Shown one piece after another: positions 17,836 through 58,408 of a DNA stretch of 64,000 bases. The notes beneath the pieces were generated by a model. That model was not told where the DNA came from and did no database searches. It saw only the letters and a list, made by a program, of their open reading frames with translations. A program made the position numbers and the translations under genes. Within the stretch, counting starts at the first letter, position 1. Every line of letters starts with the position of its first letter. The stretch is from Sulfurirhabdus autotrophica (lineage in GTDB: Bacteria; Pseudomonadota; Gammaproteobacteria; Burkholderiales; SMCO01): positions 1-64,000 of the forward strand of contig NZ_SMCO01000004.1 of assembly GCF_004346685.1 (NCBI RefSeq), written 5' to 3'.

Positions 17836-20013
17836 TTAAGCAGGTTCCAGTTTGGCATATTCCAATGCCAGCCATTTAGCCCCGGACTGGCTGAAATTCA
17901 CTTGTACTCTGGCATCGCCTCCCTTCCCTTCATGGTTGATAATCACCCCGGCACCAAATTTGGGATGAGTCACGCTTTGCCCAATGTGCCAGGGGGAGTC
18001 ATTGTTACTGGATCGGTTTATGGGCTTGCTGGCAGATTTAGTGGAATAAGTTTGTTCGGCATAGGCCGGTTGCGCCCAGGTATTAATGCGCTTGAGCAGT
18101 TCAGGAGGTAATTCGGATAAAAAGCGTGAAGGTATGCCGTAACGGATTTGCCCGTGCAGCATGCGGCTTTGAGCCAGGCTTAAATACAATCTGCGCTTGG
18201 CACGGGTAATGGCAACATACATCAATCGCCGTTCTTCTTCGATGCCATCTCTTTCATTCAGGCTTTGTTCGTGAGGGAATAGGCCTTCTTCTATCCCGCT
18301 CAAAAATACCGCATGAAACTCCAATCCCTTGGCAGCATGTACGGTCATTAACTGTAACGCATCGGAACCCGCAATGGCCTGATGCTCCCCTGCTTCCAGA
18401 GAAGCGTGGGTGAGAAATGAGGCCAGTACATCTTGTTGTTCACTATCCGCTTGCTGCTGGTTTTCAAAGTCATTCATGAACAGTGTGGCTGCATTCACCA
18501 GTTCATCCAGATTTTCAACGCGGTCTGATTCGGTTTTGCTGTTCTGGTAGTGCGTATACAAACCGCTATGAACCAGAATATGTTCCATTTGTTCTTGTAG
18601 CGGAAGCCCGGTGCAGGTTTCGCGCATGGAGTTGATCAATTGAATAAATGTAGCGATATTGCTGCCGGCCTTTCCACTTAATGCACCCGATGTGGCAGCC
18701 TGCCACAGGCTGATGTTTTGTTGCTTTGCTATATCCTGAAGCTGTTCCAGACTGCGGTTACCAATACCTCTCGTGGGGAAATTGATAATACGCAAGAACG
18801 CGCCGTCATCATTGGCATTGGCTGTGAGGCGCAGATAGGCCAGCGCATGCTTGATCTCCTGGCGTTCAAAAAATCGCAGGCCACCGTACACTTTATAGGG
18901 AATATTTGCACTGAAGAGCGCGTGCTCCAAAATGCGGGATTGCGCATTGGAACGGTAAAGCAGGGCCATGTTAGAAAGCGCCAAGCCTTCATTTTTGTGC
19001 AAGTTGCGCACTTCATCTACGATAAAAGACGCTTCCTCCAGGTCAGAAGCCGCTTCATACAGGCGGATCGGTTCGCCTGAGCCTTCAGAGGTCCACAGGT
19101 TTTTACCCAAACGCCCTCTGTTCTGGCTGATCAGTGCATTGGCGGCGTCCAGAATATTGCCATGTGAACGGTAGTTTTGCTCCAGCTTAATGACTTTCTC
19201 TACGGCAAAATCCTGTTCAAAATCGCGCATGTTGCCGGAATGGGCGCCACGGAAGGCATAAATGGACTGATCATCGTCACCCACAGCAAAAACAGCACTG
19301 TTACTACCTGCCAATAGCTTCAACCAAAGGTATTGCAGGCGGTTGGTATCCTGGAATTCGTCCACCAGAATATAATTGAATCTTCGCTGATAATGCTCCC
19401 GCAGTATTTCATTTCGGCTGAGCAGTTCATAGCAGCGCAACAGTAATTCGGCAAAGTCCACGACCCCTTCACGGATGCATTGTTCGTCGTAGGCCGCATA
19501 TAGCTCAGTCAGTTTGTGGGTGAAAGCATCATAGCTTTCTACCTTGGCCGCACGGATGCCGGACTCTTTGTTGCTATTGATAAAATGCTGTACCTGTTTG
19601 GGGGGATATTTTTCATCGTCTACATTCAGGCTCTTCAATAAGCGTTTGATGGTGGCAAGCTGGTCTGCACTGTCCAGAATCTGAAATAGTGCCGGCAGTC
19701 CTGCGTCATGATAATGAGCACGAAGTAAGCGGTTACATAGCCCATGGAATGTGCCAATCCACATGCCGCGAAGGTTGATGGGCAGCATTGTAGAAAGACG
19801 CGCCAGCATTTCTTTTGCGGCTTTATTGGTAAAGGTCACCGCTAAAATACCGTTTGGGCTGGTTTGTCCGGTTTGGATCAGGTGAGCGATTCGGGTAGTG
19901 AGTACCCGTGTTTTACCGCTCCCCGCGCCTGCTAAAATCAGCGCGGATTCATGGGGCAACGTGACTGCTTCAAGTTGAGGAGGGTTGAGACCAGATAAAA
20001 TTGAAGAAGGCAT
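17836..20013 (-). CDS. uvrD: UvrD/Rep-family DNA helicase II
   Basis: Superfamily 1A 3'-5' helicase acting in nucleotide excision and mismatch repair. Walker A is ILAGAGSGKTRVL. The helicase motifs TFTNKAAKEM (Ia), LVDEFQDTN (II), VGDDDQSIYAFRGA (III) and LEQNYRS (IV) follow. Then come TVHAAKGLEFHAVFLSGIEEG (V) and EERRLMYVAITRAKRRL (VI). The C-terminus ends in the Tudor-like PKFGAGVIINHEGKGGDARVQ segment typical of UvrD and PcrA. Length (725 aa) is normal. The cassette cluster lies directly downstream on the same strand. Confidence 0.95.
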   Translation of the reverse strand: MPSSILSGLNPPQLEAVTLPHESALILAGAGSGKTRVLTTRIAHLIQTGQTSPNGILAVTFTNKAAKEMLARLSTMLPINLRGMWIGTFHGLCNRLLRAHYHDAGLPALFQILDSADQLATIKRLLKSLNVDDEKYPPKQVQHFINSNKESGIRAAKVESYDAFTHKLTELYAAYDEQCIREGVVDFAELLLRCYELLSRNEILREHYQRRFNYILVDEFQDTNRLQYLWLKLLAGSNSAVFAVGDDDQSIYAFRGAHSGNMRDFEQDFAVEKVIKLEQNYRSHGNILDAANALISQNRGRLGKNLWTSEGSGEPIRLYEAASDLEEASFIVDEVRNLHKNEGLALSNMALLYRSNAQSRILEHALFSANIPYKVYGGLRFFERQEIKHALAYLRLTANANDDGAFLRIINFPTRGIGNRSLEQLQDIAKQQNISLWQAATSGALSGKAGSNIATFIQLINSMRETCTGLPLQEQMEHILVHSGLYTHYQNSKTESDRVENLDELVNAATLFMNDFENQQQADSEQQDVLASFLTHASLEAGEHQAIAGSDALQLMTVHAAKGLEFHAVFLSGIEEGLFPHEQSLNERDGIEEERRLMYVAITRAKRRLYLSLAQSRMLHGQIRYGIPSRFLSELPPELLKRINTWAQPAYAEQTYSTKSASKPINRSSNNDSPWHIGQSVTHPKFGAGVIINHEGKGGDARVQVNFSQSGAKWLALEYAKLEPA

Positions 20014-20170
20014 GTGCTAGAATTTCCGGATGGTAGCCAAGAGCAAAACCGTATGACCCTGTTTTTATTAAAGTTCACAAATAACCAGGAAACAGGCGAA
20101 TCAAAAATACTGGTTTTTAGCGTTGTGGTGAAACTTGGCGAAAAGATTAATTGAGAAGGTATTATAAATC

Positions 20171-20554
20171 ATGGCGATGACGCTTGGGGATTTCGTGCGC
20201 GAAGCACGCAAACAGATCAATGAATGGGATGCTGACACAGCAAAAGACAATCTCGAAGAAGAGAAAGTCCTGGTTGTGGACATCAGAGAACCCTATGAGT
20301 TTGAAAAAAGCCATTTACCCGGCGCAATTTGCATTCCCCGTGGGTTGCTGGAGGGCGCTGCAGACGCCGGTACCAAGTATAGGGATGAGCGACTGTGTCA
20401 TGCACAGGATGAAACTATCCTGCTTTATTGCCAAAGCGGGGGGCGCAGTGCTCTGGCTGCACTGACATTGCAGCAAATGGGTTTTGCAACCGTATATAAC
20501 CTGGCAGGCGGTGTTGAATTATGGGACGCGGAAGGCTACCCCCTTGAAAAATAA
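20171..20554 (+). CDS. Rhodanese-like domain protein
   Basis: Single rhodanese domain of 127 aa. The active-site loop is CQSGGRS with the persulfide-forming cysteine, preceded by VVDIREPYEFEKSHLPGAICIPRG, the CDC25/rhodanese CH2A-like signature. It is cytoplasmic and would carry sulfane sulfur to an acceptor. It is followed after 21 nt by a DedA gene and then a MoaD/ThiS-like gene, so the sulfur-carrier theme repeats within one operon. Confidence 0.9.
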   Translation: MAMTLGDFVREARKQINEWDADTAKDNLEEEKVLVVDIREPYEFEKSHLPGAICIPRGLLEGAADAGTKYRDERLCHAQDETILLYCQSGGRSALAALTLQQMGFATVYNLAGGVELWDAEGYPLEK

Positions 20555-20575
20555 TCGGGCAAATTTAAGGTTAGC

Positions 20576-21136
20576 GTGACACTCCAATCATTCATCGAAA
20601 ATTATGGTTACTTCGCCGTTTTACTAGGTACTTTTCTGGAAGGTGAAACGGTTCTGGTGATGGCCGGATTTGCCGCATTTCGTGGTTATCTCGATCTGCC
20701 GCTAGTAATCGCGGTGGCATTTGCAGGCAGTTTTCTAGGCGATCAACTTTATTTTTTACTTGGTCAGCATAAAGGTGTTGCGATTCTGGCGCGTTACCCA
20801 CGGTTGGCCGAGCGCGCAACCCATGTTCAATCATTGCTGCACAAATATCATACCCTGCTTATTTTAGTCATCCGTTTTCTCTACGGTTTGCGAATTGTTG
20901 GACCGGTTGCCATAGGGATGAGCGGCATACTGTGGCACCGATTTTTGATATTGAATATGGTGGGTGCAGCCGTTTGGGCTGTTGTAATAGGTACGCTGGG
21001 TTACTTTTTTGGCAGTGTGCTTGAATTACTGATAGCAGACATACGCCACTATGAAGAAGCCATATTAGGATTTTTCTTGCTGGCTGGTTTGCTCATGTGG
21101 GCAATTTACCGTTGGCGAAACAGGGGACAAAAATGA
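20576..21136 (+). CDS. DedA-family membrane protein (SNARE-associated / VTT domain)
   Basis: Polytopic inner-membrane protein of 186 aa, starting GTG at 20576. The VTT motif region FLEGETVLVMAGFAAFRGYL and the conserved basic RFLYGLRIVGPVAIGMSGI are both visible, with about four to five hydrophobic segments. DedA proteins are lipid scramblases or flippases linked to undecaprenyl phosphate or phospholipid recycling and to membrane potential. It overlaps the next gene as ATGA, so the two are translationally coupled. Confidence 0.9.
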   Translation: MTLQSFIENYGYFAVLLGTFLEGETVLVMAGFAAFRGYLDLPLVIAVAFAGSFLGDQLYFLLGQHKGVAILARYPRLAERATHVQSLLHKYHTLLILVIRFLYGLRIVGPVAIGMSGILWHRFLILNMVGAAVWAVVIGTLGYFFGSVLELLIADIRHYEEAILGFFLLAGLLMWAIYRWRNRGQK

Positions 21137-21381
21137 TAAAAATATTGTATTTCATGGGATTGGTGGACGTGATTGGTTGCGCTCAGGAAGAAATACCGTT
21201 GCCTGAAGACGTGCTGGATGTGAAATCTTTGTTGGAAAGTCTCATAAAACGTGGTCAGCAGTATCAAAAGGCCCTGGCCGATGTAACGAAGCTTCAGATC
21301 ACTATAAATAAGCGTTTTGTTGAACCGGATGCCCCCGTTCAGAATGGTGACGAGATCGCATTTTTCCCTACATTAAAATGA
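21133..21381 (+). CDS. MoaD/ThiS-like ubiquitin-fold protein lacking the terminal Gly-Gly
   Basis: Small beta-grasp protein of 82 aa; the start at 21133 overlaps the DedA stop by 4 nt. The fold is recognisable from IKILYFMGLVDVIG, an internal helix SLLESLIKRG and ITINKRFVEPDAPVQNGDEIAFFP. In MoaD this last strand is followed by P-x-x-GG, whose diglycine is adenylated and thiocarboxylated. Here the protein ends IAFFPTLK, so it cannot act as a classical sulfur carrier. It may be a divergent MoaD with another role, or an inactivated copy. Confidence 0.72.
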   Translation: MIKILYFMGLVDVIGCAQEEIPLPEDVLDVKSLLESLIKRGQQYQKALADVTKLQITINKRFVEPDAPVQNGDEIAFFPTLK

Positions 21382-21463
21382 AGGCAGAGGTTGGTGCATG
21401 ATGATTTGAGAGTGGTTCAGGGTGTTTACAGTAAATGGGGATATAGATCCTGAAGAGACCCTC

Positions 21464-21488
21464 ATCGTTGGTCAGGTTATCCAACGAT
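21464..21488 (+). terminator. Hairpin downstream of the rhodanese-DedA-MoaD operon
   Basis: Perfect 8-bp inverted repeat ATCGTTGG / CCAACGAT around a 9-nt loop, about 80 nt after the MoaD-like stop. There is no T-run on either side, so it is not a canonical intrinsic terminator. It could pause or terminate with Rho, or end the convergent DsrE-family gene. Confidence 0.35.
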
Positions 21489-21528
21489 TCGAGTCATTTG
21501 CCGGTTGTGGGCCAGTTCCAAAATGGCA

Positions 21529-22149
21529 TTAAATGTATAAACATACATCCGCTTTGGCAGCCAATGGAAGGAAGCTCGCTGCTCCAACCCATTCAGCGAC
21601 TTCCGGCACAAAGTCCGTTTTGCTATATCCGAATAAATCCACCGTCATCTGGCACGCAACCAATTTAACTTCAGCTTCAATGCAGGCAGAACGTAGCTCT
21701 TCAATACTCGCAACACCCTTCTGCTTTAAGGTACTGTTAAACATCGATTTGGCCATCAACTCAAATCCTGGAATATTGCCCATCACTATATTCGGAATTT
21801 TCCAGTCAATACCACGAAACCATTCTGGTCCAATGGGCATTTTCATGGGCATGGCTGGATTCCCCAGTGGCGACACACCTAGCTGCAAGTCTTTTTTCAA
21901 TAACTCCAAGCCATAGAAACTAAAAAAGATAGACACTTCCCACCCGAGTGCTGATGCCGTGGAGGCCAAGATAAAAGGTGGGTATGCCCAATCCAATGTA
22001 CCTTTGGTTGCAATCAACGCCATGGTATTGGTTTTAGCCTCTGCACGAATATTGCTTTCCTTTTCAAATTCCTCCTTAAACCACTGGTTAAATCTATCCC
22101 GTTCCAACTGATCGGATTCGCTCACAATAGCTAATGATGTCCTATTCAT
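21529..22149 (-). CDS. DsrE/DsrF/DrsH-like family protein
   Basis: COG2210-type DsrE2-like protein of about 206 aa. The start is set at the ATG at 22149 (MNRTSLAIVSESDQ), with an AAAGGGG ribosome binding site 8 nt upstream; the track's longer N-terminus adds 22 codons. Features are ALIATKGTLDWAYPPFILAS, a hydrophobic GWEVSIFFSFYGLELL, and the conserved cysteine in LVACQMTVDLFGYS. DsrE2 proteins are sulfurtransferases of sulfur-oxidising bacteria or general peroxiredoxin-like proteins. No dsrAB, hdr or tusA gene is in the window. It is divergent to a LysR gene, which probably regulates it. Confidence 0.8.
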   Translation of the reverse strand: MNRTSLAIVSESDQLERDRFNQWFKEEFEKESNIRAEAKTNTMALIATKGTLDWAYPPFILASTASALGWEVSIFFSFYGLELLKKDLQLGVSPLGNPAMPMKMPIGPEWFRGIDWKIPNIVMGNIPGFELMAKSMFNSTLKQKGVASIEELRSACIEAEVKLVACQMTVDLFGYSKTDFVPEVAEWVGAASFLPLAAKADVCLYI

Positions 22150-22281
22150 AATATTTGCCCCTTTCATATTAAATTGCGCCACAACCAAAATCCTAATTGG
22201 CAGAAACATCATCATCTACTATTCGCGTTAATTTGATAATTGCTTATATAATTGATTCACTTTCTCTATTTAGTTAACAAT
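22150..22281. promoter_or_regulatory. Divergent promoter region of the DsrE-family and LysR genes
   Basis: About 130 nt between two divergent start codons. The half nearest lysR is AT-rich and holds the short inverted repeat ATAA-TTGC-TTAT together with repeated ATAATTG elements (about 22232-22255). These resemble a LysR-type T-N11-A operator. This layout is the usual one for LysR self-regulation and control of the neighbour. Confidence 0.4.
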
Positions 22282-23196
22282 ATGCTGGTTGAAAACATCA
22301 CTGACTTGGTTATTTTTGTCGCCGTTATAAAAGCCGGAAGTTTGTCTGCCGCTGGACGAGAGTTGGGATTTTCAAGCGCGGTTGTCAGTAAGCGGTTGCA
22401 ACGCCTTGAAGAACAGTTGGGCGTTCGTTTACTCAATCGCTCGACTAGAAAACTGTGCATAACGGAAGAAGGAATTCGCTATCATGACTATTGTGTGCGA
22501 GTACTGGCCGAGCTTGATGAAGCAGAAACGCTCATTACCAGCGGGCATAGCCAACCTAAAGGCACTTTACGTGTCACCGTCCCAGCTGCATTTGGACGTT
22601 TGCATATTGCCACTCTGGTTCCCGAGTTTTTAAGGCGTTACCCGGATTTGCGTTTATCACTTCATTTATCGGACACTAAAGTTGATATTATTGAAGAAGG
22701 ATACGATGTTGCTGTCCGTATTGGCGACATGAAAGATTCTAATTTAGTAGCAAGGCATCTTGGAATAGATCGAAGAAAAGTAGTTGCGACACCTTCTTAT
22801 CTTAAAAAATTCGGCAGCCCCCAAACACCTGATGATCTTATTAATCATAATGTGCTGTTATTTGCCAATCCAACTCCTTTAGATCAATGGCAATTCATCA
22901 ACTCAAACGGTAAACCCCACAGTGTAAAAGTAACCGGTAATTTTGAAACGAATAATTGTGATGCTTTAAGAGCAGCTATTTATGCCGATGCAGGAATTGC
23001 ATTGCGCCCTGTCTGGGATGTATGGGAAGACATAAAAGCAGGAAACTTGCAGGTATTATTACCTGAATACACACACCCTTCAGTCAACATACAGGCGGTT
23101 TATCCTAGTAGGCGACATTTGTCGCAAAAAGTAAGGGTATTTATTGATCTGCTGTGCGAATCATTTGGCGAAACGCCATATTGGGATTTACCTTAA
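22282..23196 (+). CDS. LysR-family transcriptional regulator
   Basis: 304-aa regulator; the start is set at the ATG at 22282 (MLVENITDLVIFVAVIKAG). The winged helix-turn-helix lies in the first 60 residues (SLSAAGRELGFSSAVVSKRL, then LEEQLGVRLLNRSTRKLCIT). The C-terminal effector domain has two Rossmann-like halves (LRVTVPAAFGRLHIA; LRLSLHLSDTKVDIIEEGYDVAVRIG). It belongs to the DmlR/AaeR-like group by its VRIG-DSNLVARHLG pattern. It is divergent to the DsrE-family gene. The inducer is unknown. Confidence 0.93.
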   Translation: MLVENITDLVIFVAVIKAGSLSAAGRELGFSSAVVSKRLQRLEEQLGVRLLNRSTRKLCITEEGIRYHDYCVRVLAELDEAETLITSGHSQPKGTLRVTVPAAFGRLHIATLVPEFLRRYPDLRLSLHLSDTKVDIIEEGYDVAVRIGDMKDSNLVARHLGIDRRKVVATPSYLKKFGSPQTPDDLINHNVLLFANPTPLDQWQFINSNGKPHSVKVTGNFETNNCDALRAAIYADAGIALRPVWDVWEDIKAGNLQVLLPEYTHPSVNIQAVYPSRRHLSQKVRVFIDLLCESFGETPYWDLP

Positions 23197-23473
23197 AGGG
23201 AAAATATCCCCAAAAATTGGGTGAAGCACTAACCAATTATCACTTTATGAATTCTTTAACGTCAGGTATAAATTTGAATCAGTTTTACTCCACTGTAAGC
23301 GAAGGTCAGGGGCTAAGCACGGAACGGTCGAATGGTAATGCTGCGCAAGTAAAATGATCGTGAAGATTTTCGGTAAGTCCAGGAAGTCACTTGCGTGTAC
23401 AGTTGGAAAAAATTCGGCTTTGATAAGACGCAAATTAGCGGAAGAGTAAAATCAATTGTTATAGAGTTAGCAG

Positions 23474-23517
23474 AATAAAAAAACCGGCAAGTAAAGCAAC
23501 TGCTTCACTATGCCGGT
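23474..23517 (-). terminator. Intrinsic terminator of the phosphoribulokinase gene
   Basis: On the minus strand, 22 nt after the prk stop, ACCGGCA ... TGCCGGT forms a stem that continues through AGTGAAGCA / TGCTTTACT. It is followed by a run of seven Ts. Strong GC base, long stem and U-tract are all present, so this is a canonical Rho-independent terminator. It also fills part of the 340-nt gap after the LysR gene; nothing else is recognisable there. Confidence 0.9.
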
Positions 23518-23538
23518 CTGAAAATACGGAGGAACCCG

Positions 23539-24414
23539 TTATTTCGCTTTTTTCTTGTTCAAAATCATTTCATGAATCAGCGGTGTCAGAATCACTTCCA
23601 TCGCAAAGCCCATTTTCGCGCCAGGCACGACGATGGTGTTAGGACGGGACATGAAAGAACCGTTAATCATGTTAAGCATGTAAGGGAAATCCACTTTCTT
23701 GGCATCCTTGAAGCGGATAACGATGAAGCTCTCATCCGGTGTGGGGATATCACGAGCGATAAACGGGTTTGATGTATCAACCGTTGGCACGCGCTGGAAG
23801 TTAACATGGCTGCGAGAAAATTGCGGTGTGATGTAGTGCACATAGTCGTGCATACGGCGCAAAATCGTGTCAGTGACAGCTTCAGCGGAGTAACCACGCT
23901 CAGCGCAATCGCGATGAATTTTCTGGATCCACTCCAGATTCACAATAGGCACAACGCCAATCAGCAAATCCGCATACTTGGATACGTCAACCTTGCCATT
24001 TACAACGCCGCCATGCAAACCTTCATAAAACAGCAGGTCGCTTCCTTTGGGAATCGCTTTCCAAGGGGTAAAAGTACCAGCAGCCTGCTTGTATGGAGCA
24101 GCCTCTTCGTCATTGTGCAGGTAGAAGCGACGCTTGCCCGAACCGGTTTCACCATAGGTTTTGAACAACTCTTCAATTTTGTCGAAGTGGTTGGCTTCTG
24201 GCCCAAAGTGACTAGGTGCGCGGGTTTTGGCTTTTTCAGCCTTGGCTACCGCTTCTTTGAATGCGGTGCGATCCAAGCTGTGAAAGCTATCACCTTCGAC
24301 AATGGCAGGGTTCAGATTTTCACGGCGGAAAATATGCTCGAAAGCACGTTTTACCGTGGTAGTACCGGCGCCGGATGAACCGGTCACAGCGATAACAGGA
24401 TGCTTCTTGGACAT
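23539..24414 (-). CDS. prk: Phosphoribulokinase (class I)
   Basis: Makes ribulose 1,5-bisphosphate from ribulose 5-phosphate and ATP, the step before Rubisco in the Calvin-Benson-Bassham cycle. The P-loop is GSSGAGTTTVKRAF. The class I (proteobacterial, octameric) features are its 291-aa length, HFDKIEELFKTYGETGSGKRR, FYEGLHGG (Walker B region) and RRMHDYVHYITPQFSRSHVNFQRVP (landmark near residues 185-210). The gene stands alone with its own terminator; no cbbL, cbbM or cbbR is in the window. It is the strongest evidence for an autotrophic host. Confidence 0.96.
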   Translation of the reverse strand: MSKKHPVIAVTGSSGAGTTTVKRAFEHIFRRENLNPAIVEGDSFHSLDRTAFKEAVAKAEKAKTRAPSHFGPEANHFDKIEELFKTYGETGSGKRRFYLHNDEEAAPYKQAAGTFTPWKAIPKGSDLLFYEGLHGGVVNGKVDVSKYADLLIGVVPIVNLEWIQKIHRDCAERGYSAEAVTDTILRRMHDYVHYITPQFSRSHVNFQRVPTVDTSNPFIARDIPTPDESFIVIRFKDAKKVDFPYMLNMINGSFMSRPNTIVVPGAKMGFAMEVILTPLIHEMILNKKKAK

Positions 24415-24830
24415 CAGGCTCTCCTACAGCTTTTAAATGATAAAAATGAGTCAGTATAGCTTCTTAGCGCTGCTTTTGTCACTAGGTGGCACGGAATCGC
24501 AGCGGGTGGCTTGAGAAACTATCGGCAACAGATTGAAGGGGATCAAATTTTGGGGCAATTGGTTTGAAAACATCATTTTGCAATAATCTGTGAATAAAGC
24601 CCGGAATGTTTGTCGGCTGTAATTTGCAGACCAGGCCAGACTATGTGCCGCAAGTCGCAGGCAAACGTGCATGTGGATAATAGCGGTTATAATAGTTGTC
24701 TGTTTTAGCGAATGATTACATCTTTTGGTAGTGTTGAGAACAAAGAAGGTAAAAACGGCGCCCCGCATCTGGTTTGAGAAGTTGGAGCAAGCCCTTGTTG
24801 GTCGATCGGTTTTTTTGAGGATAAGGTTGG
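24415..24830. other. Long intergenic region between prk and the transglycosylase gene
   Basis: These 416 nt must hold the promoters of two divergent genes. A TTATAAT box (about 24687-24693, plus strand) is a possible -10 for the transglycosylase, though the message would then carry a leader of more than 100 nt. The open frame on the minus strand here (24451-25077) overlaps the transglycosylase and has no coding character. No RNA gene is recognised. Confidence 0.45.
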
Positions 24831-26159
24831 ATGAGAAAAATGAATAAGAAAATAGCTGCAAAAGCAGCCGCATTTTTAGTTTCGATGACAATCTTCGGCT
24901 GTGCAGCAAATGGGCAAGCGGTGAAAGCTTCCCCCGAACAAAGTCAGCCACAGAAGGCTGAGCCATGTCCCAATTGTGGTTTAAAGGACGTGGATCAGGC
25001 AGTGGCGAAGCAGGAGGGGATGCTATTTTCTGACTGGCTTGCCGGTTTTCGCATTCGGTTGAGCAATGCGGGTGCAAAGCCTGAGACGATAGCCTCCATG
25101 CTTGATGGGCTTGAGCCCGATGAGCGGATTATTGAGCGTGATCAAAGCCAGCCGGAATTTGTACGTCCGATCTGGTCCTATCTTGAGAGTGCGGCATCAG
25201 ATTTGCGGATATTCAACGGAAGGGAGGCCTATGCATCCCGTCGTAAAACAATTAATGCGATAGCTGCACGCTATGGCGTACGCGCTGAAATTTTGCTTGC
25301 CGTATGGGGGCTGGAAAGTTCCTACGGTACGATTACCGGCAATAATGACATTATTCGATCTCTGGCAACCCTGGCGTGGGAAGGCCGTCGTCGCGAGTGG
25401 GCAGAAAGCCAGCTAATTGCTGCAGCGCAAATGATTGATCGCGGCTTTGCAACACGAGATCAACTTACCGGCTCGTGGGCCGGAGCAATGGGCCAGACTC
25501 AATTTATCCCGACTGCTTATCTTGAGTGGTCCGCTGACTGGGATGGTGATGGTCGCCGCAATATCTGGACTGATGAGTTTGATGCTTTGGCTTCTGCAGC
25601 TAATTTGCTCAAGCAGGCAGGGTGGCAGTCAGGTGCTCCGGTAGTGCAGGAAGTGGTTGTCCCCGACACATTTAAACTGGACCAGTGGGATCCGGAGCGC
25701 AGTTATCTGGTCAGCGAATGGGCGGCGCGCGGGCTTCGTCGTGCTGGCGGTGAAGCCTGGAGCGCTGAAGACCTTGAACGAGCTGCAAGGCTGGAACTAC
25801 CTGCAGGGAGGGGTGGCCCAGGATTTTTAACTTTCCCGAATTTCAGGGTGATCAAACGCTATAATAATTCCACATCATATGCGCTCGGTGTTGCGTATCT
25901 GGCCGAAGGGATTGCCGGTGGCGCAACTATTACTGGCGCCTGGCCGAAGGATAACGTGCCGTTGACCACCTCTCAAACCCGCGAATTGCAGGTTGCGCTT
26001 AATGTGCTGGGATATAATTCGGGCCAGCCAGACGGTTTGGCCGGACCCAATACTCGCCGCGCATTGCGGGATTTTCAGCGTGCCAAGCATCTCGATGCCG
26101 ATGGTTATGTCGGTTCTTCAGCGTATAACGCAGTGATGGCGGCTGCCGCGAGTAAGTAG
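24831..26159 (+). CDS. Lytic murein transglycosylase, MltB family with C-terminal peptidoglycan-binding domain
   Basis: Cleaves the glycan strand of peptidoglycan to 1,6-anhydromuropeptides. The N-terminus is a lipoprotein signal with the lipobox in MTIFGCAANG (Cys about residue 24). The catalytic domain (about residues 65-360) has LAVWGLESSYGTITG with the catalytic glutamate, WAGAMGQTQFIPTAYL and DWDGDGRRNIW. A PG_binding_1 domain follows (LQVALNVLGYNSGQPDGLAGPNTRRAL, used as a landmark near residues 385-435). This is the TIGR02283 (MltB_2) architecture, and 442 aa fits. A CPNCG motif near residue 46 is unusual but lies in the linker. Confidence 0.92.
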   Translation: MRKMNKKIAAKAAAFLVSMTIFGCAANGQAVKASPEQSQPQKAEPCPNCGLKDVDQAVAKQEGMLFSDWLAGFRIRLSNAGAKPETIASMLDGLEPDERIIERDQSQPEFVRPIWSYLESAASDLRIFNGREAYASRRKTINAIAARYGVRAEILLAVWGLESSYGTITGNNDIIRSLATLAWEGRRREWAESQLIAAAQMIDRGFATRDQLTGSWAGAMGQTQFIPTAYLEWSADWDGDGRRNIWTDEFDALASAANLLKQAGWQSGAPVVQEVVVPDTFKLDQWDPERSYLVSEWAARGLRRAGGEAWSAEDLERAARLELPAGRGGPGFLTFPNFRVIKRYNNSTSYALGVAYLAEGIAGGATITGAWPKDNVPLTTSQTRELQVALNVLGYNSGQPDGLAGPNTRRALRDFQRAKHLDADGYVGSSAYNAVMAAAASK

Positions 26160-26334
26160 CCCATTCGCTAAGGCAGGGAAAGCAAAATGCTTCTCTGCCT
26201 GCTAATCAGTATGCAGCGTAAGCCTGCCGTCAATGTCCCTTTCTTGTGAACGCTGAGCCTCGAATTGATGAGATATCCGGGTAAAGCCTCCTTGCTGTAT
26301 AATGCTGGTTTTTCAAGGTAATCACGGATTTTGA

Positions 26335-28809
<2,475 letters not shown>

Positions 28810-58012: not shown

Positions 58013-58408
58013 ATGGCAACTTCAGACAATACCCCCCACCCAACTGATCTTAAGTTGCATCAGAAGTCACGGCAATTGGAAGTGTCATTTGATAATGGCG
58101 ATACGTTTAAGCTGCCTTGCGAGTTTCTGCGTGTTTATTCACCATCTGCAGAAGTGCAGGGACATGCGCAGGGTCAGGAAGTATTACAGGTAGGTAAGCG
58201 GGATGTGGAAATCAGCCGGATTGAACCTGTTGGTAACTACGCCGTCCAGCTAACTTTTTCAGACGGGCACGATAGCGGTCTTTATTCCTGGGACTACTTA
58301 TACGAACTGGGAAGAAACTACCTGTCGTTGTGGGATAAGTATTTGGCGCGAATGGAAGCCGCAGGCGCAGACCGTGCCCCTGCCTCGGCAGCGTTCAATA
58401 AACCCTGA
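58013..58408 (+). CDS. DUF971 (gamma-butyrobetaine hydroxylase-like N-terminal domain) protein
   Basis: 131-aa soluble protein consisting of the DUF971 domain alone, which in eukaryotes is the N-terminal zinc-binding part of gamma-butyrobetaine hydroxylase. The core is LKLHQKSRQLEVSFDNGDTF ... LPCEFLRVYSPSAEV and SDGHDSGLYSWDYLYELG. It is conserved upstream of ubiE in Betaproteobacteria, as here (22-nt gap). An AAGGA ribosome binding site precedes the ATG. A role in Fe-S or Fe-dependent assembly has been suggested for relatives, but I cannot confirm it. Confidence 0.9.
   Translation: MATSDNTPHPTDLKLHQKSRQLEVSFDNGDTFKLPCEFLRVYSPSAEVQGHAQGQEVLQVGKRDVEISRIEPVGNYAVQLTFSDGHDSGLYSWDYLYELGRNYLSLWDKYLARMEAAGADRAPASAAFNKP

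Follow-up and report, generated by a model that had tools for sequence, protein, structure and literature searches.

The gene under study lies in a 64,000-nucleotide stretch of the Sulfurirhabdus autotrophica genome (the window) and encodes a MoaD-like protein without the C-terminal diglycine (GG). MoaD is a ubiquitin-like protein that carries sulfur, and it needs its GG end to be active. The moaD-like gene is the third in a tight string on one strand, behind a rhodanese gene and a DedA gene (Table 1), with a 21-nt gap between the first two and an overlap (ATGA) between the DedA gene and its own start. The string, described as an operon in the initial annotation, fits an operon, and the three genes are probably co-transcribed. 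Among NCBIfam models, the rhodanese best matches the N-terminal portion of one for rhodanese-MoeB (77.1/449 bits, far under the cut-off). A LysR regulator gene is divergent from the dsrE2 gene that neighbours the moaD-like gene.

Table 1. Features of the window discussed in the text, numbered from its first nucleotide
Feature	Position	Strand	Basis
UvrD helicase gene, divergent	17836..20013	-	Neighbourhood
Single-domain rhodanese, first in string	20171..20554	+	Pfam, 85 bits
DedA/VTT-domain membrane protein	20576..21136	+	Pfam; 4-nt overlap with moaD-like start
GG-less MoaD-like protein, 82 aa	21133..21381	+	ORF, Pfam, AlphaFold model, fold match
Subfamily signature T-I-N-K-R-F, codons 57-62	21301..21318	+	Alignment columns
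Tail IAFFPTLK, codons 75-82 (canonical, ..FFPPVTGG)	21355..21378	+	Alignment
Sulfur carrier DsrE2, convergent neighbour	21529..22152	-	NCBIfam NF047629, 217.2 (cut-off 210)
Phosphoribulokinase	23539..24414	-	NCBIfam; neighbourhood
Stand-alone DUF971 (GBBH-like_N, PF06155), candidate trans partner	58013..58408	+	Partnership suggested by fusions elsewhere

The open reading frame ends in GDEIAFFPTLK, and its translation upholds the earlier statement that the chain stops at IAFFPTLK without a diglycine; inspection of the whole translation finds no GG anywhere in the product. The MoaD fold and length assigned from the sequence hold up as well. The protein matches Pfam ThiS (E 1.9e-9, 38.4 bits, cut-off 22.5), and its AlphaFold model (pLDDT 93.6, pTM 0.83) is closest among solved structures to E. 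coli MoaD (1fm0_D, TM 0.89, 32% identity). Fold, length and ThiS family are thus shared with MoaD, and the two align column by column to residue 77. On the NCBIfam moaD model (TIGR01682), however, the protein scores 53 bits, under the curated equivalog cut-off of 66.15, compared with 81.8 bits for the genome's canonical MoaD. MoaD has GG and Arg11 and its gene adjoins moaE, while the window protein lacks all three along with PPVT, keeping Phe78 and the beta-grasp fold; it has both marks of the GG-less subfamily described below, a T-x-N-[K/R]-x-F motif and no GG. As for RnfH, ThiS is the sole Pfam match reported for the protein, and among the 16 best fold matches the sole Rnf-complex chain is 8ahx_H, at rank 15 with TM 0.61.

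Pfam ThiS finds four places in the window's genome. The canonical MoaD, which ends in FFPPVTGG, is encoded on C6 between moaE and moeA, so that the GG-less protein, which is kept alongside it, is not the genome's only MoaD; the second, canonical moaD with moaE for which the initial annotation proposed a search does exist. Another match is a ThiS-like protein ending in GGG, and the remaining one is a stretch inside a 715-aa protein that reads as SpoT/RelA-like. The genome (G000) also encodes AprA (C35:15662) and DsrA (C6:47603). Two RuBisCO large-subunit genes are present, at C2:131528 and C12:76021.

Sixty-four GG-less members were read, 61 of them distinct and aligned, from the Burkholderiales and from further orders of its class. 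Of 60 relatives searched, 52 gave matches, and three of the best loci read lack GG and have ITVNK-type residues in common. The window protein and these three gave a profile (A2) that, applied to 399 Burkholderiales genomes, found 26 GG-less loci including that of the window, and nine more were read afterwards. A second profile, of 26 GG-less rows (A3), was used on 369 genomes in the class and added 29 loci, 26 of them GG-less, with three more GG-less members read later. Carriers of the gene span six families in the order and 19 in the class, and the families f34 and f52 mix carriers and non-carriers. No further GG-less member outside the class turned up when 378 genomes from the phylum were sampled; the 22 places at E ≤ 1e-18 in the search of other phylum classes include only the window's and G042's as GG-less, and 18 end in GG. 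At the other two places, L199 and L206, from those other classes, MoaD domains lie in longer frames that run on past them. A second GG-less branch (L150, L152, L160, L162, L166 and L167) has tails like IAFIPERLK and, in most cases, VMVN where ITVNK would stand. The absence of GG is a conserved trait of the whole subfamily. The alignment of orthologues called for in the initial annotation therefore finds the missing GG conserved, and relatives with GG at this position, named there as the possible refutation, are not borne out.

Comparison of the 61 GG-less rows with 72 canonical GG MoaD rows, in which Arg11, Phe78 and the PPVTGG tail are near-invariant, shows that more than the tail differs. 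Arg11, which presumably sits at the MoeB/MoaE interface of MoaD, occurs in 69/72 canonical and 0/61 GG-less rows, and Phe78 in 71/72 and 1/61, the one being the window protein. Conversely, Thr57 (0/72 against 56/61), Lys/Arg60 (4/72 against 61/61) and Phe62 (0/72 against 52/61) mark the GG-less rows, giving T-x-N-K/R-x-F in place of the A-x-N-Q-x-M/L of MoaD. Since Arg11 and Phe78 are also lost, the whole carrier surface has changed, beyond the last two residues. In a tree from which the tail columns were omitted, a single change parts GG-less from canonical sequences (SH-aLRT 92), and none of 500 shuffles gave so low a number; the tree was made by a quick method from 76 columns and leaves many forks open. 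This shows the loss of GG to be one ancient event. Close GG-less pairs have dN/dS of 0.07-0.21 in 12 of 15 cases and 0.36-0.61 in the other three, showing purifying selection in most of them. Over several orders, carrier chemistry would thus have been given up once and the fold kept under selection. Because the absent GG is conserved in relatives and dN/dS is low in most pairs, a local mutation or sequencing error is ruled out; gene decay or an assembly fault, with nothing beyond the absent tail in its favour and 64 GG-less sequences in many genomes against it, has a negligible probability.

The GG end of MoaD is the group that is adenylated by MoeB and thiocarboxylated, and its loss removes that group; the GG-less protein would not be adenylated. 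CysO and QbsE are processed ubiquitin-like carriers with the ThiS/MoaD fold, and some of their precursors have residues after the GG. The window protein, unlike these, has no internal GG with removable residues behind it that could be exposed. The initial annotation had left room for a partner that supplies the tail. The operon-like string with a rhodanese would suit a true sulfur carrier of this kind, with GG from a partner or from processing, but GG is absent from the last 12 residues of all 61 aligned rows, Cys occurs in the last eight residues of only one, and the other carrier residues are gone too, which makes this reading very improbable and leaves the supplied tail without support. The other suggestion made there, a non-canonical role, is supported. 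A review (PMC12687455) describes MoaD as contacting MoeB via its beta-sheet and C terminus. Because the other carrier residues have been lost as well, neither MoeB nor MoaE is a likely partner.

The neighbourhood of the GG-less gene varies from family to family. The uvrD gene adjoins it in the window, and the same holds for at least 8 of the 25 other loci read in the Burkholderiales, in several of which phosphoribulokinase and leuS come after; phosphoribulokinase is also near it at L091 and at other loci with the same block. The block uvrD - moaD-like - phosphoribulokinase - leuS (17836-28809 in the window) is repeated at L084-L086, L089 and L091. The tight, one-stranded rhodanese-DedA-moaD string noted initially is real in the window, but as an operon it is ruled out as a family trait: among the 25 other loci a rhodanese neighbour occurs at L089 only, where it lies directly ahead of the GG-less gene, 1 nt apart and without DedA, and a DedA neighbour occurs at none. 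At L147 (G495) a uvrD homologue directly follows the GG-less gene on the same strand, and at L125 (G551) about 0.9 kb separates a canonical GG MoaD from a uvrD homologue.

It is conceivable that the protein regulates molybdopterin synthase or serves as a decoy for it, occupying MoaE or MoeB instead of the canonical MoaD and tuning the supply of molybdenum cofactor. The MoaD fold agrees with such a role, as does the presence of a canonical MoaD/MoaE pair in the window's genome. It is nevertheless improbable, given the loss of Arg11 and Phe78 and the replaced PPVTGG tail, the absence of moaE, moeA and moeB beside the GG-less gene in the loci read, and an association that is instead with DUF971 and AprA/DsrA genomes. 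The neighbourhoods read lend no support to a molybdenum cofactor role, and annotation of GG-less genes as molybdopterin synthase subunits would mislead.

DUF971 (PF06155) is a domain of unknown function that forms an in-frame N-terminal fusion with the GG-less domain in 19 genomes, all from outside the order. By tblastn the fusion is found at 16 of the 29 class loci (two of them, L115 and L118, truncated at a contig end), with three more read later, and Pfam GBBH-like_N and ThiS are both found in 8/8 fusions tested. Of the 19 fusion genomes, 17 have at least two PF06155 matches, so that the fused DUF971 comes on top of another copy; 10 GG-less genomes without a fusion and 19 controls have 0-1. 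At L132 the fusion has sat on one side and aprBA on the other, and at L131 it lies ahead of aprBA. The window gene and the 25 other Burkholderiales loci aligned are stand-alone, without the fusion. In the order, 366 of 399 genomes have DUF971, and among those with the GG-less gene only the window's and G285 have two copies; the domain is nearly universal there, so its copy number gives no co-occurrence signal. The window's genome has stand-alone DUF971 genes in the window, ahead of ubiE, and at C8:115590-115841 (L129). Their products are 63% identical, and the window copy is followed not only by ubiE but also by an SCP2-like and a UbiB-like gene (these two by reading). Neither copy can be singled out as the unfused counterpart, both being about equally like the fusions.

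DUF971 is also the C-terminal domain of HCF101, an Fe-S protein arranged as DUF59 - P-loop NTPase - DUF971, according to two papers (PMC5890173, PMC7980591), the second of which reports a CxCxxC motif in the DUF971. The fusions share the domain with HCF101 but have no NTPase or DUF59, and CxCxxC is absent from the fused DUF971 in 14/14 checked. Fe-S binding through this motif is thereby rejected for them, and the Fe-S reading is weakened.

RuBisCO was found in all 36 genomes of the order taken as GG-less-positive and in 18/44 others; 35 of the 36 are verified; of the MoaD matches in G144, the first, read as L155, ends in GG, and without G144 the count is 35/35. For the class, the figures are 27/29 carriers and 17/51 others, the carriers without RuBisCO being G696 and G612 (77% complete). 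Autotrophy was separated from sulfur oxidation by using as controls RuBisCO-positive genomes without a detected GG-less gene; detection required E ≤ 1e-13 with A2 in the order and E ≤ 1e-20 with A3 in the class, and weak members may therefore be missed. The comparison covers 53/65 positives and 27/35 such controls (G028, G034, G038, G048, G409, G430, G442 and G450 were left out). AprA is encoded by 51/53 carriers and 12/27 controls (Fisher p 2e-7), DsrA by 51/53 and 15/27 (p 2e-5), and one or the other by 53/53 and 16/27 (p 1e-6), all p values ignoring relatedness. Among the genomes tested, the GG-less gene is therefore shown to be restricted to those with AprA or DsrA. Because AprA/DsrA separates carriers among RuBisCO-positive genomes, the distribution of the gene agrees better with sulfur oxidation than with carbon fixation. 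The link does not run the other way, as the 16 controls with AprA or DsrA have no detected GG-less gene; the gene is not required for sulfur oxidation, since many sulfur oxidisers appear to lack it.

The protein may instead function elsewhere, in carbon fixation or in DUF971-linked Fe-S or quinone chemistry, with the sulfur link reflecting only its chemolithoautotrophic hosts. The RuBisCO counts, the phosphoribulokinase in the same block, the ubiE gene beside the window DUF971 and the place of DUF971 in HCF101 all speak for this, yet it is rather unlikely, as AprA/DsrA still parts carriers from non-carriers once RuBisCO is held constant and the fusion stands beside aprBA in two genomes.

The GG-less protein probably has a different job in sulfur-oxidising bacteria. 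The reading preferred here, at a rough probability of 0.45, is that it is a non-carrier descendant of MoaD that acts, with a DUF971 partner, as a docking (adaptor or assembly) subunit of dissimilatory sulfur oxidation. A docking role is suggested by the conserved fold, the new conserved edge, the fusion partner and the pathway link together, and the rhodanese and DsrE2 genes beside the window gene also speak for the reading. The beta-grasp domain would have been kept while the GG tail, Arg11 and Phe78, with MoeB adenylation and MoaE insertion, were given up and the T-x-N-[K/R]-x-F edge arose. The fusion and the neighbourhood point to the proteins that might be docked. The partner is most likely the DUF971 protein, fused in many lineages outside the order and presumably acting in trans in the window's genome. 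Because the gene is probably co-expressed with a rhodanese in the window, its likely job would be to assist in recruiting proteins of sulfur relay or cofactor maturation to the Dsr/Apr machinery. More tentatively, the GG-less domain and DUF971 may together be a so far undescribed accessory module for sulfur oxidation by the reverse-Dsr/Apr route, in which a former sulfur carrier has become a permanent docking subunit and organises either the cytoplasmic sulfur relay (rhodanese, DsrE2) or the maturation of the Dsr/Apr enzymes. Counting against the docking reading, the window protein retains the Phe78 that the other 60 have lost, neighbourhoods differ between families, and DUF971 is uninformative within the order.

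The RnfH, TmoB and YukD families are not known to have a GG tail. In two papers (PMC1779556, PMC1949818), these are described as stand-alone beta-grasp proteins that serve as adaptor, assembly or stability factors. Beta-grasp docking in place of sulfur transfer is, by analogy, the role proposed for the GG-less protein, although its sequence puts it with MoaD. The open-licence literature searched yielded no paper that describes a GG-less MoaD or connects DUF971 or such a MoaD with sulfur oxidation. The fusion and the tie to Dsr/Apr make both domains testable in one pathway. In a proteome table of a purple sulfur bacterium (PMC6413534), one DUF971 protein is among those differentially expressed.
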